From Dethiosulfatibacter sp. (GTDB lineage: Bacteria; Bacillota; Clostridia; Tissierellales; Dethiosulfatibacteraceae): a stretch of DNA of 14,748 bases. The notes beneath the pieces were generated by a model. That model worked only from the letters and a program-made list of their open reading frames with translations. It was not told the DNA's origin and ran no database searches. This document shows, in pieces, positions 569 through 6,442 of the stretch. The translations under genes were made by a program, and so were the position numbers. Location of the stretch: positions 1-14,748 of the forward strand of contig JAUVAG010000004.1 of the NCBI GenBank assembly GCA_030591825.1. The letters are read 5' to 3'. The first letter of the stretch is position 1. Every line of letters starts with the position of its first letter.

Positions 569-694
569 TAGCTTAGGAAAGTTTAAATATGTTAAATCCC
601 TTGAAGCGTAGTATTTGACTTTCAAGGATAACTTTCCACGCTTACAACATCTATTTTATAGATGACGTAGCGTAGCTACTTTACCTATATTATA
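569..694 (-). repeat. structured leader-like repeat element, copy 2 (minus strand)
   Basis: Read on the minus strand, the element runs TATAAT (694-689), then AAAGTAGCTA (682-673), a perfect hairpin CATCTAT-aaa-ATAGATG (664-648), a long-range stem AAGCGT (643-638) with ACGCTT (609-604), then ACTTT (582-578), which pairs with the opening AAAGT, and finally AGCTA (573-569). Its last 40 bases match 32 of 40 positions in the corresponding part of the copy at 4880-5050, and the start (TATAATayargAAAGTAGCT) matches too. Fourteen bases after it comes the ribosome binding site of the small minus-strand gene. Identity was counted by eye. It may be a 5' leader RNA or a small mobile repeat. Confidence 0.6.
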
Positions 695-766: not shown

Positions 767-815
767 ACATAGTTGGGTAAATAATCATAATATAGTGTGA
801 ATTTAGGAGCAAAAT

Positions 816-4491: not shown

Positions 4492-4830
4492 ATGAAAATA
4501 GCTATAATAGTAAGAGAAAAGACTATGGAAAGATGCACGGGAAAAGGGTGTTTTAGAGCCTTCAACAACAGGGAGGATTCCTTCAGTGATTACGGTGAAG
4601 ATACAGAACTTGTGTCCTTCATGAATGATGGTGGAGATTTTGACTACAAGATACAAAAGCTCATTGACCTGGGAGTGGATACCGTACATCTTTCAACCTG
4701 CATAAGGGGAAAGAATGAAAACTACGAAGAAATGGCGGAAAAGCTTTCTGAACATTTCAACATAATTGGATATACCCATGGAAATGCTGAAGGAAGGTCA
4801 AGAAGTGCTGTCATCCTTCACAAAAAATGA
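4492..4830 (+). CDS. CGGC domain-family protein (putative metal-binding)
   Basis: A 112-residue cytoplasmic protein resembling the CGGC family (Pfam CGGC, COG5561), which is predicted to bind metal but has no established function. The conserved opening MKIAIIVRE, the CTGKGC pair (Cys15, Cys20), the HLSTC block (Cys about 68) and the final GYTHG are present. The eponymous CGGC stretch is replaced by NDGGD (about residues 45-49), so one expected ligand group is missing; I believe some relatives share this, but could not check. GAGGATGA precedes the ATG. It stands alone between the terminator of the first xdh operon and the structured element, on the same strand. A TATAAT at 4476-4481 is too close to the start to be an ordinary promoter. 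A role linked to the xdh genes is only suggested by position. Confidence 0.7.
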   Translation: MKIAIIVREKTMERCTGKGCFRAFNNREDSFSDYGEDTELVSFMNDGGDFDYKIQKLIDLGVDTVHLSTCIRGKNENYEEMAEKLSEHFNIIGYTHGNAEGRSRSAVILHKK

Positions 4831-4879
4831 CGATTCATGAACATTGCTTTTTAATATATATAATAATCCTGCAAAGTGA

Positions 4880-5050
4880 TATAATACAAGAAAGTAGCTT
4901 TGCTGCGTTAACCAGTTCACAGCGACATCGTCGCGCTAGATGTGAAGCAGATAGTGACCAGAGCGGTTATTAAGATGCGAAAGAAAGTTTCCTTAACCGC
5001 ATAACACCAACGCTTCAAGGGGTTATGCATAGTTTGACTTTCTTAAGCTA
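4880..5050 (+). ncRNA. structured leader-like element, copy 1 (candidate cis-regulatory RNA or repeat)
   Basis: The element opens with TATAAT (4880-4885), which would place a transcript start near 4892. Its ends pair: AAGAAAGT (4888-4895) with ACTTTCTT (5037-5044). Inside are three hairpins: TTCACA-GCGAC-atc-GTCGC-(6-nt bulge)-TGTGAA (4916-4946), GCGGTTA / TAACCGC (4963-5000) and GCATAAC / GTTATGC (4999-5028, sharing two bases with the previous one). The end pairing competes with TAGCTT (4895-4900) pairing AAGCTA (5045-5050). A shorter diverged copy lies on the minus strand at 569-694. Each copy sits just ahead of a ribosome binding site in the sense direction. I do not recognise a known riboswitch class. 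A MITE-like or IS200/IS605-derived repeat is the main alternative. Confidence 0.6.
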
Positions 5051-5076
5051 TAAAAAAAGGGAAGGAAGTGTTAGAA

Positions 5077-5775
5077 TTGGCAAAAAATAAAGTGATGTTT
5101 CAGTTGAATTTCAAGGAAATGATAAAGGAAACAAGTGATGTTTATTCTTTTGTATTCACTATACCCGAAGATCTTGATTGGATACCCGGGCAACATGGAA
5201 TTTTCAGGTTTACAGATAAAAACATAGAGGGTAAAGATTTTAGGATATTCAGTTTCGCTTCTATAAAAGAAGAGAATATGATGCTTTTTACTACTAGAAT
5301 AGTAGATGAACCCAGTGATTTTAAGAAGCATTTGCTGACACTCAAGACTGGAGATATAATGACAGTTGATGGCGCAATTGGTAAATTTAAGATTGATGAT
5401 TATGACAAAACCATTTGCATAATGGCAGGTGGAATTGGAATTACACCCATTAGAGCCTTTCTTAAGGATTTGGATAGCAGGGCGGTCAATCCCAAGTTGT
5501 TGAAGGTTTTGTATTCTGATGATAGGGGAGAATTCGCCTATGAAGAATTCTTGAAGGAAGTAAATGAAAAGTATAGCGGACTTGATATTGAATTCATTTC
5601 GGATAGAAATATATTTTCATATCAAATTGATGAATTTGCAAAAGAAAAGAGTAATGACTCTTTATATTATATAGCAGGAACACCAGGTATGAATGCTTTC
5701 ATTACTGAAAAGCTTCTTGGGCTTGGAATAGAAAAAGACTTTATAAAAACGGATGTTTTCCTTGGATATGAATAA
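5077..5775 (+). CDS. ferredoxin-NADP reductase-type FAD/NAD(P)-binding oxidoreductase
   Basis: A 232-residue flavoprotein of the ferredoxin reductase (FNR) superfamily. The N-terminal beta-barrel FAD domain has PGQH (37-40) and the flavin-binding RIFS (56-59). The NAD(P)-binding domain has GGIGITP (118-124), AGTPGM around 206-211 and the typical C-terminal KTDVFLGYE. There is no attached [2Fe-2S] ferredoxin or globin domain, so it must pass electrons to or from a separate partner. The TTG at 5077 is preferred to the GTG at 5068, because GGGAAGGAAG (5059-5068) is correctly spaced only for the TTG. The 15-base gap to the methyltransferase implies one transcript. The structured element at 4880-5050 forms its likely 5' leader. 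Partner and physiological role are unknown; its place between two molybdenum hydroxylase operons is suggestive only. Confidence 0.8.
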   Translation: MAKNKVMFQLNFKEMIKETSDVYSFVFTIPEDLDWIPGQHGIFRFTDKNIEGKDFRIFSFASIKEENMMLFTTRIVDEPSDFKKHLLTLKTGDIMTVDGAIGKFKIDDYDKTICIMAGGIGITPIRAFLKDLDSRAVNPKLLKVLYSDDRGEFAYEEFLKEVNEKYSGLDIEFISDRNIFSYQIDEFAKEKSNDSLYYIAGTPGMNAFITEKLLGLGIEKDFIKTDVFLGYE

Positions 5776-5790
5776 ATCGAGTTTAATAAT

Positions 5791-6378
5791 ATGAATCTAT
5801 CAGATATAATTTACGATTCCTTCATGCTTCCTCTTGAAACCTTTGTACTCAAGAAAAAAAGGAAGACAATGTTTAAGAATATAGAAGGTAATATATTGGA
5901 AATAGGTGCAGGGACAGGTACAAATCTTGGTTTTTATGATTTTGATATGATTTCATCCTATACTGTAGTTGACAGAAGGGTATTGGAGAAGATTAGAAAA
6001 TTTGATTTTCCCAAAGATAAGAAAATTAAATTTATTAATTCCAGCGTTGAATTTTTGTGTTTTGAAGATGACACTTTTGACAGTATAGTTTTCACTCTTG
6101 TATTTTGTTCCGTAGATGATCCTTTAAAAGGACTTAACGAGGTGAAAAGGGTTTTAAAGCCTGGAGGCAGAATTTATTTTATGGAGCATGTAATGCCTGA
6201 ACACAGTATTTTGAAGAATCTTTTCAATAGATTGAACTCCAGCTGGAACAAGCTTGCAAACGGTTGTAATCTAAACAGGGAAACAGCAGACATGATTAGA
6301 GATGCAGGTTTCGAAATTGAAACTTTGGAAAGGTTCTTCGGGGCATTTATAGTTGGAAGAGCTATAGTGAAACAGTAA
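5791..6378 (+). CDS. class I SAM-dependent methyltransferase
   Basis: A 195-residue Rossmann-fold methyltransferase. Motif I is LEIGAGTGTNL (36-46), which binds SAM. The acidic end of the second strand is in VVDRR, the post-motif DDTFDSIVF follows, and VLKPGGRIYFMEH is the conserved motif III region of the Methyltransf_11 / METTL7-like type. The protein ends in a beta hairpin-like stretch (FGAFIVGRAIVKQ). The substrate (lipid, quinone, small thiol or other) is not predictable. The ribosome binding site is poor; it lies 15 bases after the flavoprotein gene and is probably translated through coupling. A clear terminator follows. Confidence 0.8.
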   Translation: MNLSDIIYDSFMLPLETFVLKKKRKTMFKNIEGNILEIGAGTGTNLGFYDFDMISSYTVVDRRVLEKIRKFDFPKDKKIKFINSSVEFLCFEDDTFDSIVFTLVFCSVDDPLKGLNEVKRVLKPGGRIYFMEHVMPEHSILKNLFNRLNSSWNKLANGCNLNRETADMIRDAGFEIETLERFFGAFIVGRAIVKQ

Positions 6379-6402
6379 ATAGAATTTAAATTAGACTAAG
6401 AG

Positions 6403-6442
6403 ATCACCTTCTTTGCGAAAACTGCAAATGAGGTGATTTTTT
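6403..6442 (+). terminator. intrinsic terminator of the flavoprotein-methyltransferase operon
   Basis: ATCACCT (6403-6409) pairs with AGGTGAT (6431-6437), with an inner stem TTTGC / GCAAA, followed by six T residues (6437-6442). It starts 25 bases after the methyltransferase stop. Confidence 0.85.

Follow-up and report, generated by a model that had tools for sequence, protein, structure and literature searches.

In the 14,748-nucleotide window (the whole stretch of DNA analysed here, which is contig C225 of a Dethiosulfatibacter genome), a structured element lies between a TATAAT box and a flavoprotein gene, and a shorter copy of it is found on the other strand. Is this element a leader that regulates the gene behind it, or DNA that arrived there by insertion? 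The initial annotation preferred a cis-regulatory leader RNA with a two-state switch, and gave a dispersed repeat that carries a promoter as the alternative. As we discuss below, the long copy (copy A) is mobile DNA that landed before the flavoprotein gene and is not a switch built for that gene. One candidate riboswitch is thereby lost. What is gained is a large repeat family whose fold is clear and whose insertion rule is simple, with both filled and empty sites in two species. For the question of how structured repeats without genes move in Gram-positive bacteria, the family can serve as a test case. It also carries a warning: a structured stretch between a TATAAT and a ribosome binding site (RBS) can result from insertion.

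Copies and distribution of the repeat

Copy A, the long form of the repeat, occupies 164 bases of the plus strand (4887..5050) and matches covariance model R1 over model positions 1-121 with 120.3 bits. Copy B, the short form, lies on the minus strand at about 569..683; its match to R1 spans 569-686 (71.3 bits), and its start was trimmed by eye. At their 3' ends the copies share 32 of 40 bases, as first reported, and the TATAAT noted ahead of each copy is confirmed at 4880..4885 on the plus strand, a putative promoter box, and at 689..694 on the minus strand. Both boxes are outside the repeat. Stretches resembling an RBS, read by eye, follow both copies.

The two copies belong to a large set. 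In the window genome (G000, an assembly of 351 contigs and 1.77 Mb with 68.3% completeness), BLAST gave 70 matches with copy A as query and 47 with copy B. Model R1, built from 23 copies, was run with an E cutoff of 0.01 and scored 150 candidates per genome. It matched at least 119 times in the window genome, which is 68% complete, and at least 86 times in Dethiosulfatibacter aminovorans DSM 17477 (G001), the second genome of the same genus; both counts include partial matches and matches at contig ends. A wide search of the order, with stricter filters that may miss weak relatives, placed the repeat in 2 of 249 genomes, the same two, and a search of the same kind in a class sample placed it in 1 of 391, the window genome itself. 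An exact pattern matched eight stretches of a species-level genome collection, all in D. aminovorans. Plasmid and phage collections held no match to the repeat, and viral contigs none to three exact patterns of it. The repeat is a small non-coding dispersed element with about a hundred copies, so far only in the genus Dethiosulfatibacter.

The initial annotation was right that this is a structured element without an Rfam counterpart: its fold covaries, as described below, and Rfam 15 gave zero matches to the window at E up to 1 and no match at the repeat in four further repeat loci. Among the open-access papers listed for such repeats or for this genus, none was found to report such a Dethiosulfatibacter family. 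The repeat is a new family of a general kind that is already known, since many intergenic stem-loop families are described in a survey of 40 genomes (PMC2267715). In the Bacillus cereus group, bcr1 and bcr2-bcr18 are described as intergenic elements, 100-400 bp long, that are confined to this one group of bacteria, and bcr1 is present 11 to 130 times per genome; mobile features and a link to a T-rich TTTAT motif are attributed to them, and their mechanism is worded there only as possible (PMC6542083). Part of the copies are transcribed in UTRs, and bcr1-bcr3 are termed MITE-like (PMC3446304). Compared by description only, the Dethiosulfatibacter repeat is like bcr1 in copy number, lineage restriction and T-rich motif (PMC6542083). 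It differs in that it occurs in another bacterial order and has the site NAANAAA, or TTTNTTN on the other strand. In kind, it appears to be like bcr1 or the REPINs considered below, as far as descriptions allow them to be compared.

Fold of the repeat and the folded strand

Copies typically start with CAAGAAAG (type A) or an AACAAAG-like sequence (type B). Then come helix P1, helix P2, the length of which varies from copy to copy, helix P3 with its inner hairpin P3b, and a 3' end that reads AAGCTR or a variant. In copy A, P1 (GTAGC / GCTGC) occupies 4894..4906, P2 with its long inner part 4910..4968, P3 (outer GC/GC plus AAGAAAGTT / GACTTTCTT) 4977..5048, and P3b (GCATAACACC / GGGGTTATGC) 4999..5028, all on the plus strand. 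The pairs changed on both sides number 3 of 5 in P1, 4 of 6 in P2, 4 of 11 in P3, and 3 of 9 in P3b. Among 23 copies, 97.2% of 710 cells are standard pairs and 14 of 31 pairs are changed on both sides, values that 0 of 500 shuffles reach; slid controls give 34-41%. RNAalifold, with 35 copies, returned 18 pairs (P1, part of P2, and P3b), of which 14 have changes on both sides. The helices are kept by paired changes among copies, a covariation that a leader RNA family would also show.

As the initial annotation described, the long copy can be folded with complementary ends and internal hairpins. The two mutually exclusive pairings on which that annotation based its switch can be drawn as well, but neither beats shuffles: the end-to-end pairing of AAGAAAGT with ACTTTCTT is present in 81.5% of cells against 81.5% in shuffles, and TAGCT/AGCTA in 80.0% against 80.0%, which amounts to no covariation for either. 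The bases of both rival pairings sit in helices that do covary. The minimum-energy fold of copy A includes the TAGCTT/AAGCTA pairing.

G-T and A-C cells bear on the question of which strand folds. In 132 copies, selected under a rule that favours neither kind, the plus strand has 132 G-T against 51 A-C cells (134 against 52 under an earlier rule); G-T is the commoner in 22 pairs and A-C in 3. A mutational asymmetry that would match this excess is not seen in the unpaired columns (C>T 6.2%, G>A 7.4%; A>G 4.4%, T>C 4.6%). When distinct helix sequences with one non-Watson-Crick cell are counted, G-T and A-C stand at 17 vs 5 in P1 and P2 together and at 20 vs 20 in P3a and P3b. This sequence comparison provides moderate evidence that the plus strand is the folded strand. 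Because copies run both with and against nearby genes, selection on the fold probably acts via mobility and not via each neighbouring gene. An IS200/IS605 derivative would be expected to move from the strand on the lagging template, and GC skew was used as a guide to the replication strand. It is positive on the plus strand in 23 of 71 copies in the window genome (p 0.004) and in 31 of 54 in D. aminovorans (p 0.34), a bias that is significant in the first genome and of opposite sign and not significant in the second. Pairs of flanking genes have the direction of the element in 12 cases and the reverse in 28 in the window genome, and 24 vs 12 in D. aminovorans.

Insertion sites

From 152 matches, 127 copies were kept and listed, 115 of them with enough flank; gene directions were taken from simple ORF calls. 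In the 111 non-tandem right flanks, A is the commonest base at positions 2, 3, 5, 6, and 7 (79, 92, 87, 88, and 77 of 111), a preference written as NAANAAA. The A-rich right flank of copy A, TAAAAAAA (5051..5058, plus strand), is on this insertion-site side. A strong motif was not found in the left flanks. The repeat's own 5' end (CAAGAAA) resembles the insertion-site motif, which would explain head-to-tail arrays. Past the A-rich flank, a simple script detected terminator-like hairpins to the right of 18 of 111 copies, a few of the 18 being doubtful, against 3 of 115 to the left. This would fit insertion into the T-tracts of terminators that lie on the other strand. With the flanks joined, an open frame of at least 90 codons runs across the site in 13 of 115 cases. 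Solo 5' ends (CAAGAAAGCAGC-like) often stand directly behind a full copy, as in the right flanks of loci L104, L102, and L170; they are perhaps remnants of older copies.

Three clean pairs of filled and empty sites were obtained between the two species, and in these the target bases are neither duplicated nor lost. At 777..778 of the window, TACATAGTTGGG runs uninterrupted into TAAATAATC; no element lies directly upstream of the gene at 816, and its counterpart in D. aminovorans (L091) has a 137-base copy at this point. Locus L028 of the window genome is empty, with TTTTCAAG joined to TAAACTCG, and locus L154 of D. aminovorans has a copy at the same point. Conversely, locus L159 of D. aminovorans is empty, with GTTGAA joined to CAAGAAGAAG, and locus L041 of the window genome has two tandem copies there. 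Insertion is thus shown to be precise and without target duplication, just 5' of the A-rich NAANAAA. The remaining comparisons are less tidy. For the tandem pair in L028 vs L154, the right joint alone is clean; the joints of L131/L021 and of the L159 copy vs L041 are roughly clean, that of L185/L081 is not, and for L126/L044 and L152/L017 only one of the two flanks matches. Two copies of the window genome, L044 and L046, are identical and have different flanks. Against mobility stand the small number of clean sites, just three, the one base beside the joint that differs between species in two of them (777..778 vs L091 and L028 vs L154), and the single copy that both species share between the same flanks (L156/L173).

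A last point against mobility is that the two window copies are not themselves at clean empty sites: the syntenic region of D. aminovorans lacks both, and the neighbouring genes are gone too. Within 4840-6431, the flavoprotein and methyltransferase genes are missing there along with copy A, and about 74 bases lie between the matching parts. Copy B and a small minus-strand frame (282-452), which has no Pfam match, are likewise in sequence, at 314-777, that is absent from D. aminovorans. A CGGC domain was found in a 112-aa protein that the window encodes at 4492-4830.

Routes of movement and the leader reading

The explanation that we favour, and consider fairly probable, is that of a repeat of the genus Dethiosulfatibacter that is mobile but not autonomous and is moved in trans, the leading guess being an HUH-type route on the minus strand. 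The mover would be an HUH-type single-strand transposase (IS200/IS605- or RAYT-like). Such a trans-acting enzyme would recognise the fold and the A-rich motif, and an effect of copy A on the flavoprotein gene would be incidental. Read on the minus strand, the site TTTNTTN lies 5' of the element and the element ends in TTTCTTG, which is how IS608-like ends are described. By eye, AAGAAAG near the minus-strand left end could pair with the site, so that a guide would be plausible there; none was seen for the minus-strand right end. The rules described for IS608 comprise a target tetranucleotide beside the left end, a matching motif at the right end, and guides beside hairpins (PMC6006769). The Dethiosulfatibacter minus strand fits the first two, with the site motif at its left end and a like motif closing its right end. 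The repeat also shares with IS200/IS605 elements insertion next to a fixed motif without target duplication. It differs from them in that no transposase-encoding relative of the repeat was found and the IS200-type loci of D. aminovorans are without the repeat; moreover, the strand evidence points to the opposite strand.

REPINs are described as extragenic elements that form tandem clusters, show compensatory changes in their hairpins, and have a 5' tail that can pair with the 3' end; movement in trans by a Y1 protein has been proposed for them (PMC3116915). Judged by that description, the Dethiosulfatibacter repeat shares with them the extragenic placement, the tandem clusters, the compensatory changes and the complementary 5' tail and 3' end (PMC3116915). 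REP sequences are defined by a GT[AG]G tetranucleotide at the foot of the hairpin (PMC6006769), which is absent, by eye, from the repeat consensus. A Y1 protein of 277 aa is encoded in both genomes. From its length we take it to be RAYT-like, which gives both genomes a gene of the REP-RAYT kind. REP repeats flank the RAYT gene, whereas the Dethiosulfatibacter copies are not beside the gene for the 277-aa protein: about 1.5 kb on either side of these genes holds no repeat copy. Of 249 genomes of the order, 83 have relatives of this protein and 2 have the repeat, and co-distribution was rejected as a link because it is non-specific. At locus L097, one weak partial match to the repeat lies about 0.9 kb from the gene for a 245-aa protein. 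D. aminovorans has in addition two IS200-type, one IS91-type, and two RVT_1 matches. When the Y1, Y2, and RT loci of both genomes (the window genome at 68% completeness) were scanned with a repeat profile or model, no full copy was seen beside any of them, and no autonomous parent with the same ends was found among them. The absence of full copies beside Y1 genes, the far wider spread of the 277-aa relatives, the failure to see a guide for the right end, the differing replication-strand bias of the two genomes, and the G-T excess of the plus strand speak against an HUH route. The evidence for a folded plus strand, in particular, weakens the HUH guess and leaves room for an RNA step.

It is unlikely, though well within reason, that the mobile repeat uses another DNA route, namely a site-specific recombinase or another transposase, as suggested for bcr elements. 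The same facts of mobility would hold, no mover was found among the families searched (Y1, Y2, RT), and for bcr elements a possible recombination-like mobility around TTTAT is described (PMC6542083). No candidate gene speaks for such a route within a search that covered those families. As to an IS91 route, Y2_Tnp gave one match in D. aminovorans and none in the window genome. The right flanks of the repeat include CAAG (10 of 111) and GAAC (6 of 111), both of them IS91 sites; TAAA is the commonest (21 of 111). The route was rejected on the grounds that the only Y2 gene is in D. aminovorans and the repeat is absent nearby. That IS91-type transposase gene (L191, 1381-3265) overlaps a recombinase-like frame.

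Movement through RNA is improbable. Here the plus strand would be transcribed, folded, and reverse-transcribed into a nick in T-rich DNA, much as a SINE moves. The G-T excess of the plus strand, which lacks a counterpart in the unpaired columns, the A-rich 3' flank, and the compared sites without target duplication are all consistent with it. The excess disappears in P3, however, once helices are collapsed, and RVT_1 has zero matches in the window genome (68% complete) and two in D. aminovorans, a short frame and a long protein. Slightly more doubtful still is the full claim of a bacterial SINE-like retroelement, a gene-less structured RNA reverse-transcribed into T-rich nicks, in which selection for mobility would act on the plus-strand fold. 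One long D. aminovorans frame (1141 aa; L100, 1042-3567) has an RVT_1 match.

The cis-regulatory leader RNA family with a two-state switch, with which the initial annotation began, is now very improbable, and as a function of the whole family it is already contradicted. Both window copies do lie between a TATAAT and an RBS-like stretch, the fold is conserved, and 10 of 115 copies have an exact TATAAT in the 18 bases to their left, compared with 1 of 111 on the mirrored side. For boxes that resemble TATAAT, however, the counts over the same distance are 30 of 115 to the left of the copies, 19 of 115 in a control stretch, and 9 of 111 in the mirrored position. These counts indicate that placement beside a promoter is somewhat frequent and not the rule. 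Nor are copies tied to gene starts, contrary to the earlier claim: the gene to the right has the direction of the element in 56 of 115 cases and the opposite direction in 58, the very outcome that had been named as refuting the claim. The flanking gene pairs are ++ in 36, -- in 40, +- in 17, and -+ in 17 cases, with 5 having one side unassigned. The rival pairings do not covary, and the presence of the repeat differs between species. Finally, a genome of the same family (G005), in which R1 did not find the repeat, has a 66%-identical flavoprotein gene followed, by eye, by a methyltransferase-like frame. The gene pair exists without the repeat, and the repeat is therefore not a required leader of the flavoprotein gene. 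The alternative offered by the initial annotation fared better in one half: the element is a dispersed repeat, but the TATAAT that it was thought to carry is outside it, and the compared sites have no flanking duplication. A classical DDE-type miniature inverted-repeat element with target duplication, which the short complementary ends AAGAAAG / CTTTCTT of the repeat might suggest, is the least credible explanation, being contradicted by the absence of target duplication at the three clean sites, with an end-to-end pairing that does not covary.

Other structured or repeated sequences lie close to some copies. At locus L010, a lysine riboswitch (1171-1315, 75.7 bits) is near a repeat copy, and at L016 a copy abuts, by eye, an apparent T-box leader terminator. 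Locus L041 also contains an unrelated sequence of about 115 bases (449-563 and 567 onward), which is present twice in tandem in the window genome and seemingly once in D. aminovorans.
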